Part shown: piece by piece, positions 1,751 to 23,475 of the stretch
Position numbering within the stretch: position 1 is the first letter of the stretch
Layout of the letters: each line of letters opens with the position of its first letter
DNA from: a virus
Virus record (IMG/VR): IMGVR_UViG_3300046003_007653
Span: 1-25,074 of that record
DNA: 25,074 nt
Direction: 5' to 3' (one strand)
Program-made: the position numbers and the translations under genes
The notes under the pieces: generated by a model
The model's database searches: none
What the model was told of the DNA's origin: nothing
The model's input: only the letters and a program-made list of their open reading frames with translations

Positions 1751-1751
1751 G

Positions 1752-1844: not shown

Positions 1845-1860
1845 GGTTTCCTTTCCGCAA

Positions 1861-1893: not shown

Positions 1894-1930
1894 CCGCTTA
1901 TGGTTTCTTCTCGTGGTTTCTCCGACAGGG

Positions 1931-2452: not shown

Positions 2453-2482
2453 TTGGTTTTCTCCTTTTTGGTTTCTCCTTTT
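2453..2482 (-). promoter_or_regulatory. Tandem duplicated ribosome-binding site before the SSB-like gene
   Basis: On the minus strand, two near-identical units, AAAAGGAGAAACC and AAAAAGGAGAAAACC, lie back to back before ATG 2452. The nearer copy has normal Shine-Dalgarno spacing. The farther copy is about 15 nt upstream and may act as a standby site or be a recent duplication. Confidence 0.55.
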
Positions 2483-2491
2483 CGCGGGCGA

Positions 2492-3600: not shown

Positions 3601-3625
3601 TTAATTTCTTGGTGTTTTTGGCCAA

Positions 3626-3643
3626 TTTGCTACGTTTGCTACG
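3626..3643 (+). repeat. attP arm-type repeats, right pair (2 x TTTGCTACG), before int
   Basis: TTTGCTACG occurs twice head to tail at 3626-3634 and 3635-3643, just upstream of the int start at 3652. An inverted copy, CGTAGCAAA, lies inside int at 3811-3819. The pair probably binds integrase and, because it overlaps the int leader, could also mediate integrase autoregulation. Confidence 0.65.
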
Positions 3644-3651
3644 GACTCAAT

Positions 3652-4800: not shown

Positions 4801-4855
4801 GCTCATTCAACCCGCGCTTAGCGCGAGCGGCTCCCACGTACCTCTCGGGGGTCAT
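4520..4855 (-). CDS. xis: Excisionase-like small helix-turn-helix protein (111 aa)
   Basis: The segment from about residue 20, MNLRELSAAYGIAYNRARQL, then GFPMVRGLVFPAAFEAWMQ, is a short MerR/excisionase-type winged helix-turn-helix: 'pick the module from context, then a wing ending in the substrate-like residue run'. ATG 4855 overlaps the stop of the upstream RHH gene (ATGA), so the two are co-translated. The gene is antisense to the last 281 bases of int. The expected role is to direct excision by bending att DNA. The C-terminal half after residue 65 is low-complexity and may be shaped by the overlap with int. Confidence 0.6.
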   Translation of the reverse strand: MTPERYVGAARAKRGLNELMNLRELSAAYGIAYNRARQLSFQPGFPMVRGLVFPAAFEAWMQEGPRSRRAADLPLNGADTGRAPASKNGSRVAWRQLEQSLHAAGLSHVLP

Positions 4856-5013
4856 GGCGCGTCGTCAGCCTCCTGAATCAGCTTCGCAACCAACTGCGAA
4901 AGACTTAGATTTTTCTTCTCCGCCAGCTCCCGGCCCAGCTTTTTAATGTGGACGGGCAGATACAAATTCGTCACCTCCGCGCCGCTGTTCTTCGAGGAGG
5001 ATTTGACTGGCAT
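4852..5013 (-). CDS. Ribbon-helix-helix (Arc/CopG-like) regulator, 53 aa, leftward
   Basis: The protein starts MPVKSSSKNSGAEVTNLYLP. The beta-strand candidate EVTNLYLPVHI is followed by helix KKLGRELAEKK, a turn with NLSLSQ and helix LVAKLIQEAD. This order is that of a single RHH domain binding operator DNA as a dimer with residues from the strand. ATG 5013 has no Shine-Dalgarno but lies 6 nt after a -10-like TAGAAC, suggesting a leaderless message. It sits first in the xis-side operon and faces a second RHH gene across a 112-bp operator region. Probably one half of a lysogeny/lysis-type switch. Confidence 0.75.
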   Translation of the reverse strand: MPVKSSSKNSGAEVTNLYLPVHIKKLGRELAEKKNLSLSQLVAKLIQEADDAP

Positions 5014-5015
5014 GT

Positions 5016-5048
5016 GCGTGTTCTATGCGCATGAAACACGCATGGCAA
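5016..5048 (-). promoter_or_regulatory. Leftward promoter overlapped by a 26-bp palindromic operator
   Basis: On the minus strand, TTGCCA (5048-5043), a 17-bp spacer and TAGAAC (5025-5020) end 6 nt before ATG 5013. The span 5016-5041 is a palindrome with outer arms GCGTGTT and AACACGC around a perfect centre ATGCGCAT; 11 of 13 base pairs match. It covers the spacer and the -10, so a dimeric repressor bound here would block this promoter. Confidence 0.65.
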
Positions 5049-5090
5049 GAAAAAAGATGCTTTGGGCTGAACTTTTTTTCCGGCGCGAAT

Positions 5091-5122
5091 TTGACCTGCG
5101 CACTTTTTACGCATAACATGCG
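5091..5122 (+). promoter_or_regulatory. Rightward promoter with short palindrome at its -10
   Basis: TTGACC (5091-5096), a 17-bp spacer and TAACAT (5114-5119) end 6 nt before ATG 5126. The -10 lies in a perfect inverted repeat, CGCAT-AAC-ATGCG (5110-5122), which shares the half-site ATGCG/CGCAT with the leftward operator. The expected start of transcription coincides with the ATG, as in leaderless lambda cI transcripts from PRM. Confidence 0.65.
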
Positions 5123-5125
5123 CTG

Positions 5126-5326
5126 ATGGCAAAGGAAGCCACCAACCTGACCCTGCCGGCCGAGGTCAAAAAGAAAGGCATGGCCTTGGCCAAAAAGGCA
5201 GGCATGTCCCTTTCGACCTATGTTACCCAGCTGCTGATCAAGGAGGCGGCCCAAGAACAGGGTTTTACCAGCCCGAGCCCTGCCCTGTATGTGGCCGGGC
5301 GTCCGCAGGGTAAGATCAAAAGATAG
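5126..5326 (+). CDS. Ribbon-helix-helix regulator, 66 aa, rightward
   Basis: The product starts MAKEATNLTLPAEVKKKGMA. The predicted strand ATNLTLP, helix AEVKKKGMALAKKAG, turn MSLST and helix YVTQLLIKEAAQE make a typical RHH fold. A short basic tail (GRPQGKIKR) follows. It has no Shine-Dalgarno and sits immediately behind the -10 element, so it is probably read from a leaderless mRNA. It is divergent from the other RHH gene and shares operator half-sites with it. It ends 3 bp from a convergent minus-strand gene. By position it is the best candidate for a prophage-maintaining repressor, but no other evidence says which RHH does what. Confidence 0.75.
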   Translation: MAKEATNLTLPAEVKKKGMALAKKAGMSLSTYVTQLLIKEAAQEQGFTSPSPALYVAGRPQGKIKR

Positions 5327-5329
5327 GCT

Positions 5330-5608
5330 TTATCCCTTTTTGGATACGAGCCGGTAGTGCCGGTTCAGGCGGACATACCCGCGCCTGGGACCGCGGGAGT
5401 CTTCACTGGGCTTGATCCATGTGCGGAACTTCTTGGTCTCCGCCCTGCCCAGTTTCACCAGCAGGTTGAGCTCACGGCAGACGTGATATTTGTTTTTCTT
5501 CAGCTCCGCCGCAATCTGTTCCAGCGTCTGCCAACCGGGCGGGATCTCATCCGCCTCCTGAGAAAATGCTTTTTGGATCGCCTCTGCCCATCCCACCTTG
5601 CCCTTCAC
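5330..5608 (-). CDS. Winged-helix DNA-binding-like protein (92 aa)
   Basis: GTG 5608 overlaps the metallophosphoesterase stop (GTGA). The first residues, WAEAIQKAFSQE and GWQTLEQIAAELKKN, then HVCRELNLLVKLGRAETKKF, have the helix, helix-turn-helix (T-x-x-x-IA-x-x-L) and wing pattern of a small winged-helix protein. The C-terminus is basic (RRGYVRLNRHYRLVSKKG). It may regulate transcription or act in packaging or replication; nothing in the sequence decides. It is the last gene of the rightmost minus-strand run before the switch region. Confidence 0.6.
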   Translation of the reverse strand: MKGKVGWAEAIQKAFSQEADEIPPGWQTLEQIAAELKKNKYHVCRELNLLVKLGRAETKKFRTWIKPSEDSRGPRRGYVRLNRHYRLVSKKG

Positions 5609-6342
5609 AGCGGGAATCTCCACTCCCCTTTCACCGGCGTGGCCAGCCAGGACACGCAGGCGTCCTGGCAAAACTCCCCATAGGCAAAGCCGTGGCCCCA
5701 GCGGTACGTGGCCCGGCGTTGGCGGGCGTAGCCCATGGCCCCGATGTTGGCCAACGTGCCAGTGCAGATCCCCGTGGGCGAACCGATCACGCGGCCCCGG
5801 GCAATCTCTGGCCGGTGCAGATGCGCCATGACGATGGGCTTGCCCAGGGATTCAATCGTGTCCCGCACGGCCGCCTCGGAACACTGGAAGCCGTGCAAAA
5901 AGACCGTGTCGCCCAACAAGGACAGCCCACCCTCGATGTCGTAGGGGTACAGCTGGGCCTTAAGTTTTTTGGCTGCCTGTTCGATTGCCGCAACCCCCTG
6001 CTCCGCCGCATAGGCCACGACCGCGGAGGATGATCTAGTTAGGCCAAAAATTCGGTTCTCGTGGTTCCCGAGGTGGATCCGGGTCACTTCCAGTTCCTTG
6101 AGGTGGGTCATTCCGTGGAGATAATCGTCGGCAAAACTTGCGGTCTTGTCTGGGTCGTCAGGGCTGTGCCTTGCCCCCGCCCTCCAGGCTGCCGTGTCCA
6201 GGAAGTCGCCCAAGTGGATTGTCTCCACCGGACGCCAGCGGGATCTAAAGGATAGAACCTGCTCCCAGGCCTTGCGGTCGATGTGACCGGCGTGGGTGCA
6301 TCCTACCGCCAGCCAGCGCCTCCACTTGCGGACGACGTTCAC
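5605..6342 (-). CDS. Calcineurin-like metallophosphoesterase (245 aa)
   Basis: Dinuclear-metal phosphoesterase motifs are in order: GCTHAGH (residues 14-20), LGDFLD with Asp46, GNHE (92-95), HGF with His150 and AHLH (173-176). Members hydrolyse nucleotide, phosphoprotein or nucleic-acid phosphoesters; phage copies may process DNA ends or nucleotides. The first motif has Cys15 where the family usually has Asp (D-x-H). This either marks a subfamily or weakens one metal site. The start GTG 6342 has only a poor Shine-Dalgarno and is the likeliest because it gives a short N-terminus before the first strand. It overlaps the downstream winged-helix gene by 4 nt. Confidence 0.85.
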   Translation of the reverse strand: MNVVRKWRRWLAVGCTHAGHIDRKAWEQVLSFRSRWRPVETIHLGDFLDTAAWRAGARHSPDDPDKTASFADDYLHGMTHLKELEVTRIHLGNHENRIFGLTRSSSAVVAYAAEQGVAAIEQAAKKLKAQLYPYDIEGGLSLLGDTVFLHGFQCSEAAVRDTIESLGKPIVMAHLHRPEIARGRVIGSPTGICTGTLANIGAMGYARQRRATYRWGHGFAYGEFCQDACVSWLATPVKGEWRFPL

Positions 6343-6368
6343 TTTACACGCGCCTATGTGTCAAAAGT

Positions 6369-6695
6369 TTAGGCCTTGTCCTCGTACCCAGGCAGGCCTT
6401 GGAGGATCTGCAGGATCCGGACGCACGATTCCCGGGCATCCGCGGCGGCCACGGTCTTGTCGTCCGCCCCCTTGAGCGCCAGATCGGCAATCACCGCCAG
6501 CTGCACTTTGTGCGTGTAGACGTAGGAAACCAGATCGACCACCTCGCTGATGGCGTCCGCCCAGCACGGGCGCAGCCACAGTGCCCCGCCGTGCTCCTCC
6601 TGCCCCTTCCGGTACTTGCGGTCAAAATCGCGCAGAAAGGCGTCCTTGATTGAGGCCAGATGGAGCTCGTGCTCCTTGGACATAGGCGATTTCAC
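6369..6695 (-). CDS. MazG-like all-alpha NTP-pyrophosphohydrolase family protein (108 aa)
   Basis: The central segment, KYRKGQEEHGGALWLRP, followed by ADAISEVVDLVSYVYTHK, matches the helical MazG/dUTPase-2 superfamily pattern. The Glu residues (QEEHGG, EVVD) would bind Mg2+. Such proteins remove pyrophosphate from nucleotides, or in phages modulate nucleotide pools or (p)ppGpp. The usual E-x-x-E-x(12-28)-E-x-x-D layout is only partly clear here. GTG 6695 overlaps the endopeptidase stop (GTGA); ATG 6683 is an alternative. The C-terminus (GLPGYEDKA) is acidic. Confidence 0.6.
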   Translation of the reverse strand: MKSPMSKEHELHLASIKDAFLRDFDRKYRKGQEEHGGALWLRPCWADAISEVVDLVSYVYTHKVQLAVIADLALKGADDKTVAAADARESCVRILQILQGLPGYEDKA

Positions 6696-7198
6696 GGCTT
6701 GCGCAGGCCCGCCTTACGGGCCGTTTTGGTAGGTTGTGGCGCGGTTGTGGCCACGCGGATGTTTTGATTGCCGGGAATATCCCGCCAGGTCTTGTAGCGG
6801 CCATCCTGCAGGTGGCCCGTCTCCCAGCTGATCGATGCCAGGTCAAACGTGTGGCCGCATTGTTCCCCCACCTTGTAGGCGGTGGCGTCATCCCAATCGG
6901 CCGAGAAAAGTTTGGGGTCCTTGGCCGTGGGTTTTACCGGCACCCAATCAAACGCCAGCCCGTAGTTGTGGTAGCTCTCCCCGGGCTTGGCCTTGGTGAC
7001 AATCCGGCCGGGCTTGGTCCTACCCTGGGCAAACAGCGCCAGCTGCTCCTCAAAACTGCGGAAACCGCAGTAGATCAGCGGCCGGATCCCCGTCTGCACC
7101 ATTTCATCCAGCCATTGCCTCACCCTCCGCTGAAAGTTTGCCTCCAGCGTGGCGATGGTTTTCAGCGTGCGGTTACTGATCTCCGCCAGCGTGTTCAC
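6692..7198 (-). CDS. Endolysin: M15-family peptidoglycan peptidase (168 aa)
   Basis: The fold of VanY/L-alanyl-D-glutamate endopeptidases is shown by ESYHNYGLAFDW (S-x-H-x2-G-x-A-x-D; His77, Asp84) and WETGHLQ (Glu126, His129). These are the zinc ligands and catalytic acid. A helix with R-x(S)FEEQ-x-LFAQGR precedes them, as in phage A500/T5-type enzymes. It cleaves stem-peptide bonds in peptidoglycan to release progeny. There is no signal peptide, so export needs a holin. The C-terminus from residue 145 is a basic tail (KTARKAGLRKP). GTG 7198 overlaps the lipoprotein stop. Confidence 0.9.
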   Translation of the reverse strand: MNTLAEISNRTLKTIATLEANFQRRVRQWLDEMVQTGIRPLIYCGFRSFEEQLALFAQGRTKPGRIVTKAKPGESYHNYGLAFDWVPVKPTAKDPKLFSADWDDATAYKVGEQCGHTFDLASISWETGHLQDGRYKTWRDIPGNQNIRVATTAPQPTKTARKAGLRKP

Positions 7199-7467
7199 TG
7201 GCGGGCCCGTTCCCGTGCTGTTTCCGCCAGGCTATTAACAACAGTCGACAACGCGCGGGCGTACTGTTTCCGGAAGGCTTCCGGTGGCCGCCCGTATTCC
7301 TTTTCCAGCGCGTCCCATTCTTGCATGAGAGCCTGGACGCTTTCCCTTTCCGGCGCCGGGCCCGAAGCGACTTGGGAGACCGTCGCACAGGCTACCAGCA
7401 GGATCCCCAGACTAAGGACGCTTAAGCCACCAAGAATCGATGTCGCGAAGGCGCTTTTGGCGGTCAT
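7195..7467 (-). CDS. Lysis-region lipoprotein (90 aa), possible outer-membrane spanin
   Basis: ATG 7467 follows AGGAG by 8 nt. The N-terminus, MTAKSAFATSILGGLSVLSL then GILLVAC, is a lipoprotein signal with lipobox L-V-A-C; the acylated Cys is about residue 27. After cleavage a region of about 60 residues remains, with charged helix stretches (EWDALEKEYGR, ARALSTVVNSLAETARERA). Its place directly upstream of the endolysin and its overlap with a membrane-protein gene recall Rz1/o-spanin genes. It could equally be a lipoprotein of another function. The next gene starts on its stop (GTGA). Confidence 0.7.
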   Translation of the reverse strand: MTAKSAFATSILGGLSVLSLGILLVACATVSQVASGPAPERESVQALMQEWDALEKEYGRPPEAFRKQYARALSTVVNSLAETARERARQ

Positions 7468-7570
7468 GTTCGATCTCCTCAAAGCTGCGCTGGAGCGGGC
7501 TTTTGCGTTTTAAAAACCACAGGATCACCGCCACGATCCCGCCCAAAAGAGACAGGGCGGCCGTGAGCAT
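7412..7570 (-). CDS. Small membrane protein, 52 aa, overlapping the lipoprotein gene
   Basis: ATG 7570 is 1 nt after the holin-like stop, and the frame runs to TAG 7412, overlapping the lipoprotein gene by 56 nt in another frame. The product MLTAALSLLGGIVAVILWFL has one N-terminal membrane helix, then KRKS and a charged tail (EEIEHDRQKRLRDIDSWW). The strong positive charge after the helix predicts a cytoplasmic C-terminus, which argues against a typical i-spanin. It is nevertheless the partner position of Rz in Rz/Rz1 pairs. Confidence 0.6.
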   Translation of the reverse strand: MLTAALSLLGGIVAVILWFLKRKSPLQRSFEEIEHDRQKRLRDIDSWWLKRP

Positions 7571-7571
7571 G

Positions 7572-7739
7572 TTATTTGCGCGAAAACTTTTCGAGCCAGG
7601 CGACGATGCGGTACAGCGTCCGCTCCGGCTCCTCGCCCGGGATGAAGGTGGCCAGCAGGGCGGCTGCGCCCAGGAGGGCCGTCAGCGCGCCCAATACACC
7701 CAGCCAATCAATCTTAAGGAGTGCGGTGATAATTTCCAT
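7572..7739 (-). CDS. Holin-like small membrane protein (55 aa)
   Basis: The product starts MEIITALLKIDWLGVLGALT, continues with a hydrophobic helix (about residues 12-33, ALLGAAALLATFIPG) and ends with an amphipathic charged tail (EKFSRK). I recall similar short FIPGE/FSRK proteins in the lysis regions of environmental phages. Size, position before a lipoprotein and endolysin, and topology fit a small holin that permeabilises the inner membrane. The start codon at 7739 is inside a 7-bp hairpin (7737-7755), so translation may be controlled. No strong Shine-Dalgarno is seen. Confidence 0.6.
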   Translation of the reverse strand: MEIITALLKIDWLGVLGALTALLGAAALLATFIPGEEPERTLYRIVAWLEKFSRK

Positions 7740-7755
7740 ACCCGTGCTGGGTATG
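7737..7755 (-). promoter_or_regulatory. Hairpin enclosing the holin-like start codon
   Basis: CATACCC (7737-7743) and GGGTATG (7749-7755) form a perfect 7-bp stem with a 5-nt loop. In the minus-strand mRNA the final ATG of the stem is the start codon of the holin-like gene. The structure would mask the codon and the bases before it, a plausible translational brake on holin synthesis. Confidence 0.45.
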
Positions 7756-7772
7756 TCAAAAGCCGTTGAAAA

Positions 7773-8036
7773 TCAGATGCCCAGCTTGCGGGAGATGACC
7801 GTGCCAAAAGCGGAGGCGGCGGCTGTGACGATTACCCACGCCAGCCACAGCTTGGTCTTAAGCGAGTGTGCATCGGCCTCCAGGGCGGTGACCTGGGCGT
7901 CCAGGTGGGTCAGCTTGGTTTTAAGCAGATCACGGATTTCGCCGATCTGTTCCATGATCCACTTTTGGTTGGCCTCGATCGTCACGATCCGTTTATCCAG
8001 CCCGTGGATGTCGGCTGAAAGGTTCCGCGCCGGCAT
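7773..8036 (-). CDS. Coiled-coil protein with C-terminal membrane anchor (87 aa)
   Basis: I chose ATG 8036 because it follows the upstream gene's stop by 4 nt. The start is MPARNLSADIHGLDKRIVTI. Residues 12-60 are a likely coiled coil (TIEANQKWIMEQIGEI, LDAQVTALEADAHSL). Residues 62-83 form a membrane helix (WLAWVIVTAAASAFGTV), and the end is SRKLGI. It resembles haemolysin-XhlA-like or holin-associated phage proteins in shape. It could act as an antiholin or a lysis accessory at the inner membrane. Confidence 0.65.
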   Translation of the reverse strand: MPARNLSADIHGLDKRIVTIEANQKWIMEQIGEIRDLLKTKLTHLDAQVTALEADAHSLKTKLWLAWVIVTAAASAFGTVISRKLGI

Positions 8037-8040
8037 GGCG

Positions 8041-8175
8041 TCAGATCTCCGCGGTTTCCGCGCCTTCACAGATGCGGACGCACTCCGCCCCGGAGGCGTC
8101 ATAGAAGCGTTCGATGTAGCCTTCCGCGACCAGCCAGTTAATGGCGGCCAAAAAATCTGCGTAGGTGTAGCTCAT
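8041..8175 (-). CDS. Small acidic protein, 44 aa
   Basis: ATG 8175 directly follows the previous stop (TGAATG). The product starts MSYTYADFLAAINWLVAEGY and ends ETAEI. It resembles a short helix-turn-helix-like pair of helices but is too small for a firm call. Support is positional: same strand, abutting genes and GGAGA 9 nt upstream. Unknown function. Confidence 0.5.
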   Translation of the reverse strand: MSYTYADFLAAINWLVAEGYIERFYDASGAECVRICEGAETAEI

Positions 8176-8352
8176 TCACAGATTCTCCGGCATAGATGGT
8201 GCGGTAAAATTTATTAACGAAAGCTCCTCCTCGGTCTTCGCCGCATCAATCTCAGCAAGGCAACGCTCAACTTCCTTTTGGGATGCAATAGCGATCTTTT
8301 GAAGAAATTTAATTCTTGTTTGCAGGATATTCTTTTTTGCGTTTTCTTTCAT
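8176..8352 (-). CDS. Small charged helical protein, 58 aa
   Basis: The product starts MKENAKKNILQTRIKFLQKI and continues with SQKEVERCLAEIDAAKTEEE: two charged helices, perhaps a coiled coil. The base composition is AT-rich like the next gene upstream and unlike the rest. It starts 1 nt after that gene's stop and ends against the next ATG. No family recognised. It may belong with the fibre end as a chaperone-like protein, but that is only inferred from position. Confidence 0.55.
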   Translation of the reverse strand: MKENAKKNILQTRIKFLQKIAIASQKEVERCLAEIDAAKTEEELSLINFTAPSMPENL

Positions 8353-8353
8353 T

Positions 8354-8836
8354 TTATGCTATTGGCCTATAAAGAGTTGCCAGATTTCCATTTTCTATTG
8401 CAACATTAACTCCACCACCAAGACTGGTCTGAACAACGACTATGGATGACTGCAATAAAACATTTCCTATATCAGTAGAAAAATCCGAGGTTGCTACATA
8501 GCAAATCGTCTCTGAGGATGTTTGCCCAGTAATTGCATCAGTAAACGGACCCAAACTATTATCAAGTATAAAACAATCAGACAGCCCAGAATAATATGGT
8601 GAGTCTACATTAACTGCATTTCCAAGATAGTAAGATGCTATATATACAATGTCTGAATAAGAAAATGGATCGGCCCAAGAGCAATCACCAAACAAACTTC
8701 TAAAAGTTTGGTTTTTTTTATATTTTGGAACAAATGCAAGAAGTTGCGTAGTTGTATCTGTTGCTACTGTTGCAAGCCCACACCTATTATCATATTTTCT
8801 TTTGTTTATAGGTATTCCCGATGATCCTATTTTCAT
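8354..8836 (-). CDS. AT-rich protein at the tail-fibre end (160 aa), unknown
   Basis: ATG 8836 overlaps the fibre stop (ATGA). The product starts MKIGSSGIPINKRKYDNRCG. It is rich in Ser, Thr, Tyr, Asp and Asn, with many short strand-like runs (SDIVYIASYYLG, SIVVVQTSLGGGVNVAIENG). It has no signal peptide or membrane helix. The DNA is strikingly AT-rich against its GC-rich neighbours, indicating recent acquisition. As the last gene of the tail module it is a candidate receptor-binding tip or fibre-tip protein, but no domain is recognised. Confidence 0.6.
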   Translation of the reverse strand: MKIGSSGIPINKRKYDNRCGLATVATDTTTQLLAFVPKYKKNQTFRSLFGDCSWADPFSYSDIVYIASYYLGNAVNVDSPYYSGLSDCFILDNSLGPFTDAITGQTSSETICYVATSDFSTDIGNVLLQSSIVVVQTSLGGGVNVAIENGNLATLYRPIA

Positions 8837-10080
8837 GTTATTTCAGTCACCCTAGCCGTTCCTGCCGTTGCAAAAATAGCGTTCACCTGTCCTGTATATT
8901 TATCAATTTCAAGGTAATCACCAGAAAACAGCTTGACCGAATAATTGGTAGTGCTTGCGGTTCCGCTTCCGTATAGAACATGAAGATTGCCTGCGCCCTC
9001 GTTGTAGATGGTCAGAACCTTTCGGTTTGAGTTGGATGCCTTTAGGGTTGATGAAGTAGTGGAAGTGAAATTGGATACTGTTGCCTCCCCTGTTGCACCC
9101 CTATTAGAAACATTAAATGTGCCAGATCCAGCATTCGCAGTAACCGTCCCGCTAATCGTTGGTAGAGAGCCGATGGTGACGGAGTTGCTGACTGTGACGG
9201 TTGCAGAAAGCGGAAGGCTTGGATGATTTATTACTTGAAGTGGCGCGCCATTTGCATCGTCAAAACCAATTCTAACTCCAGTCCCACTATCGGTTAGCGG
9301 TATTGGTGCGTGCTGAGAATTTACATCATCCCACCCGCCTACGGTTAGAAATCCGCTAACTGTAACAGCATTTGAATCAACAAAGGCTCTGGTTCCAACA
9401 ACATTCGCCGTCACCGTCCCGCTGATGGCAGGGAGAGAGCCGATGGTGACGCTGTTGCCGACTGTAACGGTTGCTTGGAAAATTTCAACTGACGGGGAAA
9501 ACACCCTTGCATTTACATAGTTACTTCCACTTTCCAGAGATAACGGATGGCGTGAACCATCAGACCTTGTTCCTACATTAGCATTGAAAGTAACTGATGA
9601 TGCCCCAACCGTCACCGTGCCGGAGATTACAGGAGTAGAATTTGAGATAATGCCTTGAAGCTCGCCATCTGCCCATGAAAAAACACCAGCCCTTACAGGC
9701 TCAACAAGATCAACAAGGGCCGTTGCGGTAAGATTTGAGTTTGCCGTTACTGAGCCACGAACTCCAATGGTTACTGAGTTTAAATTGGACGATGAAAGAT
9801 TCGCCGTCACCGTCCCCGCCACGGTCTGGGTGGAGGCCTGGTCATCATAGAAAATGACCAGCGGGCTGGTGGTCGTCAGCCCGGCGGTGGAGGCGTTCAG
9901 CGTTACCCTTGTATCGGCCCCGGCGGAAACGGTCCCAGTGACGCTGGCGAAATTGTACAGGGTGCGACCGACGCCCGGGGCCACGATCAAAAGGAGCTGA
10001 TCGGCATCAATGTTGACGCCGGTCAGCGTGACCACGTTGGTCGCGGGGCTGTAGCTGTAGTTGGAGACAATTTGCTTCAT
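8833..10080 (-). CDS. Tail fibre / virion surface protein with internal repeats (415 aa)
   Basis: A beta-rich Ser/Thr/Val protein. The N-terminal segment is MKQIVSNYSYSPATNVVTLT. The middle carries repeats of the form ATVTV-x-NSVTIGSLP-x-ISGTVTAN, two nearly identical copies about 90 residues apart and weaker copies elsewhere. The C-terminal about 65 residues (RKVLTIYNEGAGNLHVLYG to TGQVNAIFATAGTARVTEIT) match a small beta-sandwich end domain I know from many phage tail or head-decoration proteins. It is expected to be a structural fibre or baseplate decoration contacting the host. The C-terminal half is more AT-rich than the N-terminal half. Confidence 0.7.
   Translation of the reverse strand: MKQIVSNYSYSPATNVVTLTGVNIDADQLLLIVAPGVGRTLYNFASVTGTVSAGADTRVTLNASTAGLTTTSPLVIFYDDQASTQTVAGTVTANLSSSNLNSVTIGVRGSVTANSNLTATALVDLVEPVRAGVFSWADGELQGIISNSTPVISGTVTVGASSVTFNANVGTRSDGSRHPLSLESGSNYVNARVFSPSVEIFQATVTVGNSVTIGSLPAISGTVTANVVGTRAFVDSNAVTVSGFLTVGGWDDVNSQHAPIPLTDSGTGVRIGFDDANGAPLQVINHPSLPLSATVTVSNSVTIGSLPTISGTVTANAGSGTFNVSNRGATGEATVSNFTSTTSSTLKASNSNRKVLTIYNEGAGNLHVLYGSGTASTTNYSVKLFSGDYLEIDKYTGQVNAIFATAGTARVTEIT
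9134..9204 (-). repeat. Fibre repeat unit, copy A
   Basis: About 71 bp, strongly similar to copy B at 9404-9475. Both encode ATVTV-x-NSVTIGSLP-x-ISGTVTAN in frame. The distance between copies is 270 bp (90 codons), a whole-codon period as expected for a duplicated protein module. Confidence 0.6.
9404..9475 (-). repeat. Fibre repeat unit, copy B
   Basis: Direct-repeat partner of copy A at 9134-9204. Differences are mostly scattered substitutions. The shared CGCCGTCACCGTCCC-type start recurs at about 9803, marking a third, shorter unit. Confidence 0.6.
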
Positions 10081-16824: not shown

Positions 16825-17271
16825 TCAACTCCCGATGGAGTTGGGGTAGGCTAGGACCGTCAGGCTAAGCGTGCGGGTGAAAAGCCGCTCGTCCCCCTCC
16901 ACCCCGGCTTGGCTGCCGGTGACGTCGCAGCGGTAGGCCCGGGCGGACCCGATGGCGGTGGTGGCGTTCAGCCGGCTGACGGCGGAGCTGTCATGGTAAA
17001 AAGCCTGCAGAAGCTGGGCGCTTTTCACATTAAAAGCCTGGGCGGTGGTGTCGTCCGCACCCGCGGCCAGCACGATCTCCACGGGCACCTCAAAGACGCC
17101 GGAGCCGGGCACCGGCACCTCCGCGCCCATGGTGGCGCGGATGGCCAGAAAGGGCGGATCCTTTTCCATGGTTTCCTGCGACAGGTGGTAGGTGACGCCG
17201 GTGACGGCGGAGGACAGCAGTTCCTTGAGTCCGGCCTCGATCAGGCGATCCAGCATGGTGACGGCGGCCAT
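16825..17271 (-). CDS. Tail completion / minor tail protein (148 aa)
   Basis: The product starts MAAVTMLDRLIEAGLKELLS, then VTYHLSQETMEKDPPFLAIR with EVPVPGSGVFEVPVEIVLAA, ending RTLSLTVLAYPNSIGS. A helical N-terminus followed by a beta sheet, just before the tube gene, matches the tail-terminator/completion place (gpU-like). It starts 4 nt after the zinc-ribbon stop. Family call is from position and fold impression. Confidence 0.6.
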   Translation of the reverse strand: MAAVTMLDRLIEAGLKELLSSAVTGVTYHLSQETMEKDPPFLAIRATMGAEVPVPGSGVFEVPVEIVLAAGADDTTAQAFNVKSAQLLQAFYHDSSAVSRLNATTAIGSARAYRCDVTGSQAGVEGDERLFTRTLSLTVLAYPNSIGS

Positions 17272-17275
17272 AATC

Positions 17276-17524
17276 CTAAGCCGGCAATGTCACCGCCGGC
17301 CATTTGCCGATGGGACAGGCGGATTTTGGAAAATGCAGTTTCCAGCAGCTGCAGCCGCACTTGCGGCACCGGCCGGTGCCGGCAAAAGCTTGGGCGTCCC
17401 AATGTTCGCACACCTGGCATAGGGATTGGCGGTGGGACAGCACATCCTCCGGCACGCGGCGAAAGCCCCCGCCGGCAAATCCGGCCACGGCCCGGCCGGC
17501 CTGCATGACCTGGCGGAAGATCAC
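17276..17524 (-). CDS. Small zinc-ribbon-like protein (82 aa)
   Basis: GTG 17524 overlaps the preceding stop (GTGA). The C-terminal part reads LCQVCEHWD ... GRCRKCGCSCWK ... SACPIGKW. These Cys pairs (C-x2-C, C-x2-C-x-C, C-P-x-GKW) are a known small phage and bacterial zinc-ribbon pattern. It may bind nucleic acid or a protein partner. It closes the accessory cassette and is adjacent to tail genes. Whether it belongs to the cassette or to the tail module is unclear. Confidence 0.7.
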   Translation of the reverse strand: MIFRQVMQAGRAVAGFAGGGFRRVPEDVLSHRQSLCQVCEHWDAQAFAGTGRCRKCGCSCWKLHFPKSACPIGKWPAVTLPA

Positions 17525-18144
17525 GGCTGGTCCCACACGGGCCGGATGGCGGGGTCAAACGTGACCATCTCCTTCAGCCCGGCGCCGCCGTGGGGATAGA
17601 CGGGCTCGTAGTGGTAACGCCGGACGCACGGCGGCCAGCCGATCCGGCCCCTGCCCCGCTGGGCCTTGGAGGTGTCCACGCTGCGGTCATTGTCCTCGAT
17701 GACGAACGTGCAGGGCAGGCCGTGCCCGTCCACGTAGTTCACGGCCTCGTAAAAGTGGCCCTCGTCCTCCGCGCCGTCGCCCACAAAGCACCAGACGTGG
17801 CGGGCTTCCCCGGCTTCCTTGATGCGGTGGGCCACGCCGGCGGCGATGCCGCAGGTGCCGGCCAACACGCTGGAGCTGTAAAAGTTTAGCCGGTGGTCAA
17901 AGACAAACATGCTGCGCCCCTCCCGGATCATCTGCTCCAGGGCGTCCGGATCCCCTCCGTGCAACAGGTAGTGATAGTGGGAGCGGTGGGTGGAAAAGAC
18001 CCAGTCCCCTCGCCTAATTTCCCCAAACAGCCTGACCAGCTGCACCTCGTTGCCGCCGCAAAGGTGAATCAGGTAAGGCAGCTTGCCATCCTTAAACAGC
18101 CGGCGGATGCGCAGCTCAAAGTTGATCAGATCGTGCTCGTTCAT
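17521..18144 (-). CDS. TPP-binding E1-alpha / transketolase PP-domain protein (207 aa)
   Basis: Thiamine diphosphate enzymes bind Mg-TPP through G-D-G-x(about 28)-N. Here GDGAEDEG begins at residue 122 and EDND ends the motif at 153; Asp123 and Asn152 are expected Mg ligands. STHRSHYHYL (51-60) corresponds to the His-rich active-site loop of the E1-alpha type (HRGHGH). The protein is shorter than typical E1-alpha (about 320) or the transketolase N-half (about 270). It would pair with the pyrimidine-domain protein at 19232-19759 to make a full active site. ATG 18144 overlaps the radical SAM stop. Reaction unknown: ketol transfer, decarboxylation or acyloin formation are all possible. Confidence 0.85.
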   Translation of the reverse strand: MNEHDLINFELRIRRLFKDGKLPYLIHLCGGNEVQLVRLFGEIRRGDWVFSTHRSHYHYLLHGGDPDALEQMIREGRSMFVFDHRLNFYSSSVLAGTCGIAAGVAHRIKEAGEARHVWCFVGDGAEDEGHFYEAVNYVDGHGLPCTFVIEDNDRSVDTSKAQRGRGRIGWPPCVRRYHYEPVYPHGGAGLKEMVTFDPAIRPVWDQP

Positions 18145-19232
18145 ACAAAGGCGTCGTGGCTGTCGGACGCCAGACTTTCAAACAGGGCCACCTTGTTGTG
18201 GTTGGCACACTCATGCAGGCAGCTGACGCCGGGGTTGAAGGTCTTGTGCCAGGCCCGGGCCTCCGGGCTGAACCACGCCTGCCGGAACGACTGATCCCTG
18301 AAGGACGCGATCCGGCCGTGGGCGCTGTAGGCGGTGTTGTGGCAGGCGTAGATGTTCAGGTCAGCTGCGGCCACGCAGACGGCCTGCGCGTACAGGCAGC
18401 GGGCAAACGGACGGACGGGGCTTTTGGACGGGCTGTCCAGATCGTAGGTGCTGTTGACGCTGAAGGTGTCGTCGACCAGGGCCTGGCATTCGGCCAGCTG
18501 TTCGCGCACGCGCACGGCAATGTCCTTGTGATAATCCTTGAAGCCCTGCACGTAGACGGGCGAGAAGCGCACGTTTTCCACGCCGAACTCCTTGAGGGTT
18601 TGGGCAAACGGGGTGATGCCCTCGTAGTTGTAGCGGGTGACGATGAAGTTGACCCCCAGGTCGCACGTGGCGGTCTTGGCGGCGGCAAAGGTTTTCATGT
18701 TTTTCAGCACGGCCTCAAAGCTGGCCGGAGGCACGGCGCGGCTCTGGTGCATCTGTTCGGCGCTGGTGTAATCGATGGACACGCGCACCCACTTGGCCCG
18801 GGTGAGAATTTCGGCGCGCTCGCCGGTGAGCAGCTGGCCGTTGGTGATGATGGACAGATCGATGCCGGAGGACAGCGTGGCGGTCATGGCTTGGGTGATG
18901 GCGGGATGGAACAGCGGCTCGCCCCCGCCGGAAAAGGTGACGGCCCGGACGTTCATCTCGCGCAGGTCGTCCATCAGCTCCAATAGCTTCCACGTGGGCA
19001 TGACGTCCTGCTCCTTCATTTCGGTGTGCATGGCGGACTGCAGGTGCAGGTCCGGCCGGTCCTTGGGCCGGGTGGTGCCGTCGCTGTAGGTGCAGAACCG
19101 GCAGGCGTGGTTGCAGCGGTTGGTGGGCTTGATGCGGACGTAGAGCGGGGCGGTGAGCGTCTGGGTGCGGAAACTTTCCACCTTTTCCGGAAAGCTGAAG
19201 ATCTTGTAATCGCTGTACTTGTTTTGGCGCAT
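18141..19232 (-). CDS. Radical SAM protein with extra C-terminal cysteines (SPASM-like, 363 aa)
   Basis: CNHACRFC (Cys40, 44, 47) is the C-x3-C-x2-C [4Fe-4S]/SAM signature. SGGGEPLFHP (about 100-110) is the GGE motif, and a TIM-barrel-like core follows. C-terminal cysteines (RCLYAQAVC, IYACHNTAYS, SCLHECANHN) in a SPASM-like arrangement suggest auxiliary iron-sulfur clusters. Such enzymes do radical chemistry on peptides, sugars or nucleotides: epimerisation, dehydrogenation, C-C or C-S bond formation. It lies between the two TPP-enzyme genes with 1-nt and 4-nt overlaps. It would need the host's reductant. The substrate is not visible. Confidence 0.85.
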   Translation of the reverse strand: MRQNKYSDYKIFSFPEKVESFRTQTLTAPLYVRIKPTNRCNHACRFCTYSDGTTRPKDRPDLHLQSAMHTEMKEQDVMPTWKLLELMDDLREMNVRAVTFSGGGEPLFHPAITQAMTATLSSGIDLSIITNGQLLTGERAEILTRAKWVRVSIDYTSAEQMHQSRAVPPASFEAVLKNMKTFAAAKTATCDLGVNFIVTRYNYEGITPFAQTLKEFGVENVRFSPVYVQGFKDYHKDIAVRVREQLAECQALVDDTFSVNSTYDLDSPSKSPVRPFARCLYAQAVCVAAADLNIYACHNTAYSAHGRIASFRDQSFRQAWFSPEARAWHKTFNPGVSCLHECANHNKVALFESLASDSHDAFV

Positions 19233-19759
19233 CAGATCAGGTCCTTGTGCTCGACGAGCATGGTGCTGCGGCCGCAGTGCAGCCCCTCGTGGGCCTCAAA
19301 GTAGGCCGGGGCGATCTGGTGCGGCTCGGTCAGGCGCACGACGGGAAAATCCACCATCAGGCGGATGGCGTGGGTGAAGTCCTGCACGTGGGTGGGCCCG
19401 GTGTAGAGGGGCTTGTGCCGGTTGCCGACGACCACGCGCAGGATGGCGGCGGGCCGGAACTGGCCGCGGCTGATCGTCTGGGCCGCGCCCAGGTGGTTCA
19501 CAATGGCGTCCAGCGCGTTGAGGATGAAATCCATGCGCTCGATAAAGACCACGGGTCGCAGGCCGGCCAGCGACAGGCCGGTGGCCAGGCCGACCATCAG
19601 GTTTTCCGCCACGGGCGTCTCGATCAGCTGCGCGTCGGGCACGTTTTTCAGCGTGCCCAAAGCGCGGCCGCCGATTTTCACGCCATACCCGATGAAGCGG
19701 GTGGCCTTGTCTGCGGCCAGATTGTCCATGGCCAGAGTGAGTTCGTCCCGGTAGGTCAC
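19232..19759 (-). CDS. Transketolase-type pyrimidine-domain protein (E1-beta-like, 175 aa)
   Basis: TPP enzymes need a Glu that protonates the aminopyrimidine ring. LIETPVAENLMVGLATGLSL has Glu52 in the expected place. The next segment, GLRPVVFIERMDFILNALDA then IVNHLGAAQ, matches the 'RP-x-x-x-x-x-x-x-DF-x5-D-x-IVN' of pyruvate dehydrogenase E1-beta. The start GTG 19759 overlaps the preceding stop (GTGA). The usual 130-residue C-terminal transketolase domain is absent: the protein ends shortly after the pyrimidine domain. Together with the 207-aa PP-domain protein it forms a minimal two-gene TPP enzyme. Confidence 0.85.
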   Translation of the reverse strand: MTYRDELTLAMDNLAADKATRFIGYGVKIGGRALGTLKNVPDAQLIETPVAENLMVGLATGLSLAGLRPVVFIERMDFILNALDAIVNHLGAAQTISRGQFRPAAILRVVVGNRHKPLYTGPTHVQDFTHAIRLMVDFPVVRLTEPHQIAPAYFEAHEGLHCGRSTMLVEHKDLI

Positions 19760-20520
19760 AGGATCCCCTCGCCCTCCAGCAGATGGATGGCGTGATAGAC
19801 GCTCTTGGCCATGCGGGTGCGCGGCGTGAGGATGACTTGCTCGACGTCCGCGCAGAGGATGATGGGCTTGGCCTGGTTGTGGATATTCAGGCAGGGCCAG
19901 CTGGGGCCGGTGCTGGTGCCCACGATCGCTTTGGCCTTGGTGGAGGCGGCGCCGATGAAGGTGACGTTTCTGTTTTCAAAATGCGGGCACAGGCCGGTGG
20001 GCGCGGTGGAGATAACGCGGTGGCCCTTAAGCACCAGCCGGGCAATCAGGTCGCGGAAATCCTGTTCCTTGTAATTTAAAAACTGTCCGGAAAGTCCGGG
20101 CGAGTTGATGACCAGCACGTCACACTCCGGCGCCATGGGAATGAAGGAGTCCAGCGTGGGATAATCCAGCAGCAGGTCCGCCACGGAGCGGACGGGGTTG
20201 GGTAGGCCCATTCTGCCGGCCAGCTCCTCAAACCACTGGAGGTGGAAGGCGGCAAAATCCAGCCGGTCGGGATGGCGTTCCCACCAGCCGCCGGCGTTGC
20301 GCCAGCTGTCGACGCTTTCCGGCGGGGCCTGATCGATGGGCCGGATCCGCAGGCGTGTTGAGATGTCGGACCGCAAGGCGTCGATCTCCTCAAACTTGCA
20401 CAGCTCGGGCTGATGGTAGTGGGTGATCTCCAGCGCGGGATCGGCCAGACAGGCGCGGCGCAGGAAGTTGAGCTGAACCAGGTTATCGCCCAGCCGCAGG
20501 GCGTTGTGGGTGTGGATCAT
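19756..20520 (-). CDS. GT-B / GT9-like glycosyltransferase-family protein (254 aa)
   Basis: The start, MIHTHNALRLGDNLVQLNFL, has the 'RLGD-x-(L/I)-x-x-x-x-x-LR' of GT9-like heptosyltransferases. The C-terminal half has a donor-side pattern, IVGTSTGPSWPCLNIHNQAK, then PIILCADVEQVIL, where family members show GP(S/T)H and a nucleotide-sugar site. At 254 aa it is short for the family (about 330). It may transfer a sugar made or altered by the neighbouring enzymes. It is coupled upstream and downstream by 4-nt overlaps. Confidence 0.6.
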   Translation of the reverse strand: MIHTHNALRLGDNLVQLNFLRRACLADPALEITHYHQPELCKFEEIDALRSDISTRLRIRPIDQAPPESVDSWRNAGGWWERHPDRLDFAAFHLQWFEELAGRMGLPNPVRSVADLLLDYPTLDSFIPMAPECDVLVINSPGLSGQFLNYKEQDFRDLIARLVLKGHRVISTAPTGLCPHFENRNVTFIGAASTKAKAIVGTSTGPSWPCLNIHNQAKPIILCADVEQVILTPRTRMAKSVYHAIHLLEGEGIL

Positions 20521-22211
20521 CGGGCCGACGGGTTGCGGGCCTCAAAGATTTTTTTACCGATCTCGTAATTGGTGGCGGCGTTGTGGCGCAGGAACTCCGC
20601 GTCCGGTTTTTGGCCGGTGAACATGGGATTGTTGTGGGTAAAGACGACGTCGCGGGCCTCGACCACGCACCCGTCGGCGTAGGCGCGGGCGGTGAACTCG
20701 TTATCGGAAAAGATGCCGGAGCTGGCGTCGTACTCCGGCGCAAACAGCTGGCCCTGCTTCAGGTAACGGTTGCGGGTGAGGATGGCCAGGCACAGCAGCT
20801 GGTCCTGGCGGTGCCCGTCGCTGACGGCCAGAACGGATTCGCGGGTGGTGTCGCCGATGCGGTCGGCGACGATTTTGTCCCACCACAGCGGCGGATCCCA
20901 ATCGTCGCTGCCTTGGATGATGATCTCCCCCCTGGCCTTTTCGGCGGCGCGGTTCCAGGCGGCAATGCAGCCGCCTTTTCCGGTGACGGTTCCCCAAGGC
21001 TTGAGGGCGGCGGCCTTGTCGTCGTCCTCGTCGGTGGCGTAGATCCATTCAATGCTTCCCGGATCGGCCGCTTTTTTCATCCACAGGATGCGGGCGTTGA
21101 TGGCCTCCTGCGGCCGGCCGCGGGTGGCGTGGCAGACGGTGATCTTGACGGGCTTGGTTTTGCGCCACTGGGCCTCGATTTTTTCGGCCTCGGCCGTGTC
21201 GCCCACGGCGCGGGCGGCGGCGATGTACAGGTCAATGCACTCAAAATCATAGATCTGCCGCTGGGCGTTCCACTGGGTGATGCCTGGATCCGGCTGCACC
21301 ATGGCGGCTTTCAGCAGGTGGAAGGCCGCGCCCCATTTGCCGGCGGACGCCTCCTCCCGGGCCATGTAGTAAAGCGCCTCCCGGCGGCCGGGGCTGGCCT
21401 GATGCGCCCGGGCGTAGGCGGCCATGCGCTGTTCCGTGGCGGCCTGGACGGCGCCGTAGTTGCACCAGCTCTCGTACCGCAAGGTGGGCTCCTGGCTGGG
21501 CCAGAGCGCGGAGACGTGGGACCAGGCGGAGGACTTGTCCCGCTGGCCGGAAAGAAACAGCTCCTGCTGCAGGTAGTACGCATACTTGCCGGCCTCGCCC
21601 AACTGGCTTTCCAGGATGCGCATGTTTCTGTCCGCGCTGGCGGGCTTGTAGCCGTCCACGTGGTGTTCGACCCACGGGTTCTGCTCGCCGACGACCTCGT
21701 ATCCGGGGAGCGGCAACAGGGCCTCGTGCACGGCATAGTGCCAGCGGCCGGACCACGATCCGTCGGGCAGGCGTTTGACCAGGCGTTCCCTGACGGGGTT
21801 CAGCTTGGCGTTAAGCACGGCGTAGACGCCGGCGTAGATCCCCAGCTTTTCGCGCTCCTGCAGTGCCTTGATTGCGTTTTTCAGGCGTTCCTTGAGGCCG
21901 GCGGCAGGAAGGTCATCGGCATCGACCCACATGGCAAACTGCCCGGTGCAGGCCTCTAGGGCCGTCTGGCGGGCTTTCCCGAAATGATCGACGTGGGGCC
22001 AGCCGGCGTTGGCCGGATCGTTTTTGTAGTGGACGATCTTGGCGCCCTTGCTTCTGGCGATCTCCTCGGTGCCGTCGTCGTTCAGGCCGCCGCGGGCGAT
22101 GCAGACGACGAGCTCGTCCGCGTATTTTTTAAAGGCGTCCAGGCAGCGGCCGATGTATTTGGCCTCGTTGCCGGCGATGAGATAGATGGAAAGTTGAGGA
22201 TCTCGGGGCAT
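20517..22211 (-). CDS. Two-domain GT2-type glycosyltransferase (564 aa)
   Basis: The N-terminal GT-A domain starts LSIYLIAGNEAKYIGRCLDA and has WVDADD at 95-100 (DxD metal site). It resembles SunS/WaaE-type GT2. A middle region (about 190-345) has helical repeats (YARAHQASPGRREALYYMAR, LLKAAMVQPDPG), like TPR. A second GT-A-like domain begins near 350 (KITVCHATRGRPQEAINARI) and has GSDDWDPPLWWDK. So a phage two-domain glycosyltransferase, expected to build a disaccharide or modify a virion or host component. It starts 5 nt after the head-tail joining gene's stop and is the first gene of the cassette. Confidence 0.85.
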   Translation of the reverse strand: MPRDPQLSIYLIAGNEAKYIGRCLDAFKKYADELVVCIARGGLNDDGTEEIARSKGAKIVHYKNDPANAGWPHVDHFGKARQTALEACTGQFAMWVDADDLPAAGLKERLKNAIKALQEREKLGIYAGVYAVLNAKLNPVRERLVKRLPDGSWSGRWHYAVHEALLPLPGYEVVGEQNPWVEHHVDGYKPASADRNMRILESQLGEAGKYAYYLQQELFLSGQRDKSSAWSHVSALWPSQEPTLRYESWCNYGAVQAATEQRMAAYARAHQASPGRREALYYMAREEASAGKWGAAFHLLKAAMVQPDPGITQWNAQRQIYDFECIDLYIAAARAVGDTAEAEKIEAQWRKTKPVKITVCHATRGRPQEAINARILWMKKAADPGSIEWIYATDEDDDKAAALKPWGTVTGKGGCIAAWNRAAEKARGEIIIQGSDDWDPPLWWDKIVADRIGDTTRESVLAVSDGHRQDQLLCLAILTRNRYLKQGQLFAPEYDASSGIFSDNEFTARAYADGCVVEARDVVFTHNNPMFTGQKPDAEFLRHNAATNYEIGKKIFEARNPSAR

Positions 22212-22216: not shown

Positions 22217-22516
22217 CTAACCCTCGCGCAGGCCGATGACGTAGCAGGCGTGGTTGGTATCCAGGCTGATGACGCGGTAGGTGACGCTGTTGACCAGCGC
22301 GGTGGTGCCGATGGACGGCGGCGTGGCCATGACGGCCTTGTCGGCGGTAAAGGTGGCGTTGAGGTCCAGATCGTAGCCGTGGAGCTCAAGGTTTTCCCGG
22401 CGGGTGATGGTGGAAAGGACGCCGGTGACGGAGGTGGCGCCGAAGGTGGCGGCGGTGCCGAACTGGTCGTAGGCGACGGCCAGGGCGTCTTTGAGGCAAT
22501 CGGTGAACTCGGACAT
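22217..22516 (-). CDS. Head-tail joining / neck protein (99 aa)
   Basis: The product starts MSEFTDCLKDALAVAYDQFG, then TAATFGATSVTGVLSTITRR. It ends with a beta-rich segment, VNSVTYRVISLDTNHACYVI. The order helix, then beta-barrel-like part, between the capsid and tail genes is typical of lambda gpFII/head-completion proteins. It is preceded by the terminator hairpin after the capsid gene. A helix-plus-barrel neck protein is the best call. Confidence 0.65.
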   Translation of the reverse strand: MSEFTDCLKDALAVAYDQFGTAATFGATSVTGVLSTITRRENLELHGYDLDLNATFTADKAVMATPPSIGTTALVNSVTYRVISLDTNHACYVIGLREG

Positions 22517-22584: not shown

Positions 22585-23475
22585 TTAGGCTCCGTTGATC
22601 CGCACGAGGCTGGAAGTCTCGCCGGCCTTCACGCCGTAGATCAGCGCGTAGGTCCGCTGCAGCTTACCGGTTTGCACCGAGTAGGCTTCGCGCACCTGGA
22701 CGGACAGGCCCGTCCGGGGCTCGGTGACGACCGAGATGTCGCCCGGGATGGTGACGTTGGACGGCACTTCCGGAACGCGGGCCGCGATGAGCAGGGCTTC
22801 CCGCTGGGCGAAGAATCCGCCGAGGGTGATGCTGTTGCTGGGGATCGCGGAGTACTGGTTGATGTTGAATCCCGCCACGCTGCCGAGGCCGGCATTGCGG
22901 ACGGCGTCGCCGCTGATCTGCGGATTCGCCACCACGTTGCTGTCCTTGAGGAGCGTGCCGAAGAACGCGGGCGAGAGCACCGCGTAGCGGTCGTTGGTCG
23001 GGACCTTGTTGTTGTTGAGGATCACGCCGGCCGAAACCGCCCAGGCGTAGCTGAACGAGGCCGAGCTGACGGTGATCGCGCTGGTGTAGCTGGAGCTGGT
23101 GACGAGCGCGAGCAGGTCGCCCACCATCTGCAACCCGAGGGCGTGAGCGGCGGCGCCGGCGAAACGCTCGATCAGGTTGATGTTGGAGGTGGTGCGCTCC
23201 TGGTCGTCCACGTCGTAGGAAACGTGCTTGAATTTGTCCAGGGTGATCTGCACGTCGGTCTGCGTGGCGGCGGTGGCGACGTAGCCATTGGCTTGGCTGT
23301 AGTCTTGGGCCGTCAGGGCACTGACGCGGTGGGTGTAGATGGAGGCGTTGAACTTCGCCGCGGAGTCGGAGAAGTCGGTGACGCTATTGCGGAGGAACGA
23401 GTAATCCGAAACCAGGATCTCCAGCGCGCGCTGGGCGATCACATTGGCATTGGTCGTTCCGAGTGTGTTGGCCAT
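22585..23475 (-). CDS. Major capsid protein, HK97-fold (296 aa)
   Basis: The product starts MANTLGTTNANVIAQRALEI, then LVSDYSFLRNSVTDFSDSAA and KFNASIYTHRVSALTAQDYS. Later come LMVGLQMVGDLL-like helix segments and PGDISVVTEPRTGLSVQVRE, ending KAGETSSLVRINGA. The layout (N-arm, long helix near residue 100-115, beta-hinge, P-domain) fits a P22-coat/HK97-like capsid. The ATG follows AAGGA. Being followed by the terminator hairpin supports high expression. Prohead protease and portal are upstream, as in standard phage heads. Confidence 0.85.
   Translation of the reverse strand: MANTLGTTNANVIAQRALEILVSDYSFLRNSVTDFSDSAAKFNASIYTHRVSALTAQDYSQANGYVATAATQTDVQITLDKFKHVSYDVDDQERTTSNINLIERFAGAAAHALGLQMVGDLLALVTSSSYTSAITVSSASFSYAWAVSAGVILNNNKVPTNDRYAVLSPAFFGTLLKDSNVVANPQISGDAVRNAGLGSVAGFNINQYSAIPSNSITLGGFFAQREALLIAARVPEVPSNVTIPGDISVVTEPRTGLSVQVREAYSVQTGKLQRTYALIYGVKAGETSSLVRINGA

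Follow-up and report, generated by a model that had tools for sequence, protein, structure and literature searches.

A candidate virion-glycan tailoring locus with a split thiamine pyrophosphate enzyme and exchangeable partner genes in a freshwater phage

In the avilamycin and paulomycin pathways, two-gene thiamine pyrophosphate (TPP) enzymes that resemble E1 alpha and beta chains (AviB1/AviB2 for avilamycin, Pau11/Pau12 and Plm8/Plm9 for paulomycin) have been proposed, with genetic support, to transfer a pyruvate-derived two-carbon unit onto a keto-sugar (PMC4753412, PMC4802897). Radical S-adenosylmethionine (SAM) epimerization has also been mentioned in avilamycin (PMC10991966), and BtrN from the butirosin pathway is a twitch-type radical SAM dehydrogenase that oxidizes a cyclitol alcohol to a ketone and holds its auxiliary cluster with four cysteine ligands (PMC9012708). 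Phage glycosyltransferases, for their part, are known to glycosylate virions (PMC12363180, PMC11256854), and those of mycobacteriophages Che8, Corndog and Myrna attach glycans to proteins of the capsid and the tail tube (PMC12363180). Here, we analyze a five-gene cassette in which such genes lie side by side. It is found in a freshwater phage, IMG/VR record IMGVR_UViG_3300046003_007653 (25,074 bases, the whole of which is named the window hereafter), where it is positioned inside the head-tail (structural) operon. The genes occupy positions 22211 to 17521 of the minus strand and follow one another in the order GT2 (family-2 glycosyltransferase), GT9 (GT9-like glycosyltransferase), E1b (the E1-beta or pyrimidine (Pyr) half of a TPP enzyme), a radical SAM gene and E1a (the E1-alpha or pyrophosphate (PP) half).

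Like its avilamycin and paulomycin counterparts, the phage E1-like pair occurs with sugar-pathway or glycosyltransferase genes, a likeness that is drawn by description. It differs from them in that the phage halves lack the C-terminal E1 part and belong to a viral gene set, that no deoxysugar dehydratase accompanies them, and that a radical SAM or alcohol dehydrogenase (ADH) gene always lies nearby. The avilamycin cluster also contains a radical SAM sugar epimerase, AviX12. The mycobacteriophage system is likewise compared by description, and PMC12363180 mentions no TPP or radical SAM tailoring there. Our results indicate that the cassette very probably serves the tailoring of a sugar or glycan. 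In a more specific form, to which we give about an even chance, the locus would tailor a virion glycan by making a keto-sugar and joining a two-carbon unit to it. A previous reading of the window from its sequence only (the sequence-only reading) had proposed that the TPP pair and the radical SAM enzyme make a modified or branched sugar; its sugar-modifying part is now well supported, and the exact product is still a proposal.

The TPP pair, its partner enzymes and their distribution

At the sequence level, E1a and E1b are clearly related to the alpha and beta chains of pyruvate dehydrogenase (PDH) E1, each being reduced to its cofactor-binding domain. E1a matches Pfam E1_dh (8.5e-16, over the cut-off) and PDH E1 alpha 1ni4 (3e-20), and its GDG..N motif is well conserved, with G122-D123-G124 invariant and N152 near-invariant. 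E1b matches Pfam Transket_pyr (4.5e-7, over the cut-off) and, as a profile, PDH E1 beta 1ik6 (7.6e-16; ∼160–170 residues aligned out of chains of 324–369 amino acids), while the activating glutamate of its Pyr domain (Glu52) is invariant in 26 sequences. Both proteins are markedly short: E1a has 207 amino acids compared with ∼365–382 in solved E1 alpha chains, its PDB matches covering part of these only, and E1b has 175 compared with 324–369. The full-length alpha chain and the transketolase C-terminal domain of the beta chain that mark a PDH-type E1 are thus absent, and no lipoyl E2/E3 partner was matched among the open reading frames scanned in the window and in part of G001, a sister contig. 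The split TPP pair of the sequence-only reading is therefore borne out by Pfam matches and catalytic residues, and neither this pair nor the radical SAM protein turned out to have an unrelated fold.

The radical SAM protein matches Pfam Radical_SAM (PF04055; 6.7e-19, over the cut-off), and its CX3CX2C motif (C40, C44, C47) is invariant among full-length members. Four additional cysteines (C279, C297, C338, C342) are also invariant and C190 is nearly so. Since the four invariant cysteines outside the motif have the layout expected for a BtrN-like twitch domain, in which a single auxiliary cluster is fully ligated, the tail is predicted to be a single-cluster twitch domain with four cysteine ligands and not the two-cluster SPASM domain that had been suggested; the radical SAM family and fold stand. 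Profile comparison with solved structures returned BlsE, the closest sequence-level PDB match, together with MoaA, SuiB, DesII and the C-terminus of BtrN (at 273–344). Foldseek searches with the predicted model (mean predicted local distance difference test (pLDDT) score of 79; weak at the termini and around 268–283) returned SuiB, DesII, BlsE, viperin, PqqE and SkfB. DesII and BlsE, which act on sugar nucleotides or nucleosides, are thus among the best matches in both sequence and fold, even if identity is ∼16% and the reaction context differs. The likeness to BtrN lies in the single auxiliary cluster, its four cysteine ligands and the alignable C-terminus, whereas the phage protein is larger and of low identity to it. 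The match to SuiB, SkfB and PqqE would also suit an enzyme that matures a ribosomally synthesized and post-translationally modified peptide next to coincidental neighbors. We regard this as extremely improbable, given that no precursor peptide or peptide-recognition domain was seen, that BlsE acts on a sugar nucleoside and that phages, bacteria and archaea alike show the radical SAM gene linked to the TPP pair.

The strongest hint at the reaction of the radical enzyme comes from the genes that take its place. Among 144 distinct E1a loci (identical copies removed; partners counted within 7 kb of E1a, per locus and not per event), 104 carry the radical SAM gene and 35 a Zn-dependent ADH gene. 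None carries both, and the five with neither are all cut contigs; each of the 139 loci with enough flank has one partner. On a tree of 48 E1a representatives, the partner changes four times (bootstrap range 4–4), with at least three changes forced by starred branches. As fused TPP enzymes are found with radical SAM (L117, L120) and split ones with ADH (L066, L073, L078), the swap is not tied to TPP fusion. Mutual exclusivity and repeated swaps point to equivalent chemistry, and the option shared by a twitch radical SAM enzyme and a Zn-dependent ADH is alcohol oxidation. The simplest reading of this distribution is that both probably do equivalent work, the conversion of an alcohol to a ketone, with ADH filling the slot of the radical SAM enzyme in sister loci. 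A similar alternation is that of BtrN and NeoA-type enzymes, a radical SAM enzyme versus a NAD-dehydrogenase, in 2-deoxystreptamine synthesis, for which a supporting text was sought and not found. The repeated exchange of radical SAM and Zn-ADH offers a concrete prediction of the reaction of the radical enzyme. In addition, a short-chain dehydrogenase is encoded at most 4 kb from E1a in 16 of the 35 ADH loci versus 5 of the 104 radical SAM loci. L073 and L076 had been considered as loci without a partner, which was rejected because L073 has an ADH gene and the L076 contig terminates within the radical SAM gene. In addition to the main partner, a further small radical SAM-like protein of ∼250 amino acids is encoded next to the TPP module in L054 (from 7265, 246 amino acids) and L066 (from 5437, 262 amino acids).

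In dozens of IMG/VR contigs, the complete GT2-GT9-E1b-radical SAM-E1a order is flanked by the same head and tail genes; a lack of co-occurrence, which would have refuted the sequence-only reading, was not seen. Loci of divergent viruses show E1a-E1b-radical SAM, E1b-radical SAM-E1a or E1a-GT9-E1b-radical SAM, with or without glycosyltransferase genes; these reordered loci are found on small contigs and on those of 100 to 735 kb alike, often amid other sugar genes. When viral contigs were scanned with a family profile, at least 500 stretches matched the TPP family, jumbo phages and cyanophages included. In cells, the family looks rare: scanning GTDB genomes yielded at least six candidates, five of them strong among those listed. 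One cellular locus is L143 (5863–10935, Desulfobacterales), a chromosomal row of GT2, two radical SAM genes, E1a, E1b and another radical SAM gene amid ordinary chromosomal genes (pyrB, lepB and rpoN, read from sequence). In its phylum, one of 297 sampled genomes has the family, namely the genome around which the sample was centered. In L145, labelled Nanoarchaeota, the order is E1a-E1b-radical SAM-radical SAM, with an HldE-like protein read from sequence. The linkage of the TPP family to radical SAM genes thus spans viruses, bacteria and archaea.

Cyanophages S-SM2 and P-TIM68 have a fused form of the same family, with PP and Pyr halves in one chain (PHROG 34187), which bears the annotation 'transketolase central region-containing protein' and no assigned function. 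These loci differ in adjoining a Zn-ADH gene and nucleotide-sugar genes, with no radical SAM gene, and heptose-type genes adjoin the fused enzyme in both phages. In S-SM2, the fused enzyme belongs to a lipopolysaccharide (LPS) gene cluster that was noted in 2010, the function of the cluster being called unknown there (PMC3037559). In the open-licence phage literature, we found no description of the gene set, of the radical SAM/ADH alternation or of a swappable head-tail locus. The view that no such phage system had been described holds for this literature, with the reservation that the fused TPP form was already annotated in S-SM2 and P-TIM68.

Glycosyltransferases and the exchangeable locus

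The first gene of the cassette encodes a two-domain GT2 enzyme, as initially read. Its N-terminal domain (8–129) matches Pfam Glycos_transf_2 (1.1e-14, 55 bits versus a 23-bit cut-off), and its C-terminal part forms a second glycosyltransferase-like domain, with a match to phrog_14945 (glycosyltransferase, 2e-5) at 356–531. The protein also matches phrog_13126 (beta-1,4-glycosyltransferase, 1.1e-16), and its best PDB sequence match is GmaR (1.3e-4). The second glycosyltransferase has no match in Pfam, PHROG and other sequence searches, and its assignment to GT9 stands on the predicted fold. The AlphaFold2 model (pLDDT 95) is that of a GT9 enzyme: the top PDB matches in Foldseek are WaaC, WaaF, TibC and a Veillonella GT9, and GT9-type enzymes account for 25 of the 27 matches at E ≤ 0.001, the 25 best all being GT9. 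L10-G11-D12 is invariant in 17 sequences, which provides the expected N-terminal aspartate; we take D12 to be the equivalent of the catalytic aspartate of WaaC. Compared with the heptosyltransferases TibC and WaaC, the phage protein is shorter and ∼12–17% identical.

How far the locus can vary is best seen in 80 contigs collected by capsid similarity. GT2 directly follows the head-closure gene in all 73 that are long enough; the other seven end earlier. Downstream of GT2, these 73 contigs carry the TPP module (37, some cut), a transketolase module (2) or an alternative module (17), or are cut too early (17). The alternative module is made of a methyltransferase, or a DUF5672 protein plus a methyltransferase, followed by a different GT9-like protein with a RLGDVL-type start, classed by eye. 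The capsids of these phages are still 80–83% identical to that of the window. In the transketolase variant, which occurs in near-identical phages (L087, L088, L090, L091), GT2, GT9 and the radical SAM gene are kept and the E1 pair is replaced by a methyltransferase and a transketolase-like split pair of 213 and 151 amino acids (Transketolase_N 4e-12, Transket_pyr 2e-22). A constant GT2 with an exchangeable tailoring part speaks for a role in glycan decoration and not in essential metabolism, and it resembles antigenic variation of virions.

Several contigs document these exchanges individually. In L087 (6200–7998), the transketolase-like pair and methyltransferase lie exactly at the site of the E1 pair, and four such contigs were found. 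L312 (11939–13236), L313 (8886–10859) and L314 (3001–4151) carry either a methyltransferase and a second GT9-like protein of ∼221 amino acids, or DUF5672 and TylF-like methyltransferase proteins plus the same GT9-like protein, a family with no Pfam match. In L297 (5017–5403), GT2 is directly followed by the start of this second GT9-like family, and the contig end cuts the variant.

The transketolase variant would also suit a different chemistry, in which the TPP pair, acting in a transketolase-like manner before activation, would produce a heptose or octose chain of an unusual kind. The radical SAM enzyme would then epimerize or dehydrate the attached sugar. The heptose-type genes near the fused enzyme of S-SM2 and P-TIM68, the HldE-like protein of L145 and the GT9 fold, typical of heptosyltransferases, go in the same direction, and the near-invariant C190 would suit an epimerase. 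However, the matches of E1a and E1b to E1 dehydrogenases are far stronger than those to transketolase, the small phages showed neither a phosphosugar isomerase nor a kinase, and an epimerase leaves the replacement by ADH unexplained. We consider this chemistry rather unlikely.

Proposed pathway and target

For the favored reading, a virion-glycan tailoring locus, the following sequence of events can be proposed. GT2, the constant member, and GT9 would attach the sugar and so assemble a glycan on one of the phage's structural proteins. The twitch radical SAM enzyme would turn a hydroxyl group of a sugar into a ketone, the kind of oxidation that BtrN carries out on an aminocyclitol, a task for which a Zn-ADH may substitute in other phages. 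Together, the two TPP halves would make up a single minimal carboligase. Its two-carbon unit would come from an alpha-keto acid, for instance pyruvate, or, in the transketolase-type variants, from a ketose, and would be joined to the ketone; the result would be a branched or chain-extended sugar, in line with the proposals for AviB1/AviB2, Pau11/Pau12 and Plm8/Plm9. In many ADH-type loci, the short-chain dehydrogenase might then reduce the new acyl group. Since no sugar-nucleotide synthesis gene was found with the cassette, the glycosyltransferases would draw on a host-supplied nucleotide sugar. For GT9, it could plausibly be ADP-heptose, as GT9 enzymes are typically heptosyltransferases and fused-type loci adjoin heptose-type genes. 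Taken alone, the C2-branching of a ketone is a plausible step that we place slightly short of even.

Several points weigh against this proposal. The exclusivity of radical SAM and ADH genes could come from two different acceptors instead of the same reaction, C190 could serve a twitch epimerase as hydrogen donor, and the radical SAM fold also resembles the peptide-modifying SuiB, SkfB and PqqE. In addition, the two-carbon precedents, likened here by gene makeup, act on keto-deoxysugars made by dehydratases, and GT9 enzymes also act on the LPS core, which leaves room for a host-surface target.

Regarding the target, which had been left open between virion, DNA and host surface, the position of the locus and the mycobacteriophage precedent lead us to prefer a virion protein, which is somewhat favored overall. 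A role on the host surface, where the cassette would alter the LPS core in the course of lysogeny or infection and thereby block superinfection, would be in line with the integrase gene of G001, with the LPS heptosyltransferases among GT9 enzymes and with the S-SM2 relative in an LPS-type cluster. Yet, the run encodes no flippase- or anchor-like membrane protein (no transmembrane-like stretch was seen in the cassette proteins), and all examined relatives have the locus flanked by head and tail genes, a position from which one would expect late expression. A host-surface role is consequently unlikely in our view. Glycosyltransferases of phages are also known from DNA hypermodification (Pyle et al. 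2024, as cited in PMC12619734), and together with the TPP and radical SAM enzymes they might decorate phage DNA bases. We judge this very improbable because the cassette sits in a structural operon and no nucleotide- or base-modification enzyme occurs among the ten G001 proteins scanned, nor a base-modification gene among the genes annotated in G001.

What is known of glycan chemistry in phages comes from few systems. If the proposal is true, carbon–carbon bond formation on sugars would be the task of an enzyme family that is common among aquatic viruses but rarely seen in sampled cells, and a stripped-down two-domain TPP enzyme would serve for making branched sugars. The complete picture, which we put forward tentatively, is that of a minimal two-domain viral TPP carboligase with interchangeable radical SAM/Zn-dehydrogenase partners that would make a branched sugar for attachment to the phage's own particles, the chemistry of its locus being swapped in a serotype-like manner between near-identical phages.

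Gene layout and genomic setting

All six open reading frames of the initially described set were recovered on the minus strand (Table 1), and the overlaps of 1 to 4 nucleotides between consecutive genes were found as announced: 4 for GT2/GT9 (20517–20520), 4 for GT9/E1b (19756–19759), 1 for E1b/radical SAM (19232), 4 for radical SAM/E1a (18141–18144) and 4 (GTGA) for E1a/zinc ribbon if the latter starts at GTG 17524. The run begins 5 nucleotides past the head-closure gene and ends 4 nucleotides ahead of the next gene. The five-gene core holds, while the zinc ribbon was rejected as a core member on its distribution: it adjoins E1a only in L002/L004 and the same contigs, being elsewhere or absent in other relatives, and it matches only PHROG 13558 (phrog_13558, function unknown; 1.4e-8). 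The cassette is not a chance arrangement, as its order is kept in dozens of contigs, GT2, GT9, E1b and the radical SAM gene have no internal stops, and the GC content at third codon positions is 0.84–0.91. Relatives' E1a had been suspected of being broken genes, which was rejected since the apparent stops, two codons from the alignment end, are natural stops.

Table 1. Coordinates of the cassette genes and flanking genes in the window
Feature	Position	Strand	Remarks
GT2, family-2 glycosyltransferase	20517..22211	-	564 aa; Pfam Glycos_transf_2; constant member of the locus
GT9-like glycosyltransferase	19756..20520	-	254 aa; predicted fold match (AlphaFold2, Foldseek)
E1b, TPP enzyme E1-beta/Pyr half	19232..19759	-	175 aa, GTG start; lacks transketolase C-terminal domain
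Radical SAM enzyme, predicted twitch type	18141..19232	-	363 aa; Pfam Radical_SAM, CX3CX2C
E1a, TPP enzyme E1-alpha/PP half	17521..18144	-	207 aa; GDG..N motif; Pfam E1_dh
Zinc ribbon, small, accessory and not core	17276..17524	-	82 aa from GTG 17524; longest open reading frame starts at 17536
Head-closure/attachment protein (flank)	22217..22516	-	weak: Phage_attach 5.9e-4 (under Pfam cut-off), phrog_161 head closure Hc1 0.038
Major capsid protein (flank)	22585..23475	-	phrog_283 major head protein 3.4e-30
Conserved late gene (flank), tail completion presumed from position	16825..17271	-	syntenic in relatives; no Pfam/PHROG family match, no match in phage records

The capsid was uninformative about the host, its relatives being matched at only 24–29% (a Verrucomicrobia phage and Gordonia phages). 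The 33.6-kb sister contig G001, 99.7% identical to the window over 15.3 kb, includes genes for a GpA terminase, a lambda-type portal, an integrase, a VanY-type lysin and an AAA/PriCT replication protein. From 9801 onward, the late region of the window aligns with it end to end at 99.7%, while the left arm (1–9800) aligns in parts only, at 92.6–95.6% identity, which indicates that the two phages differ in their early arm.

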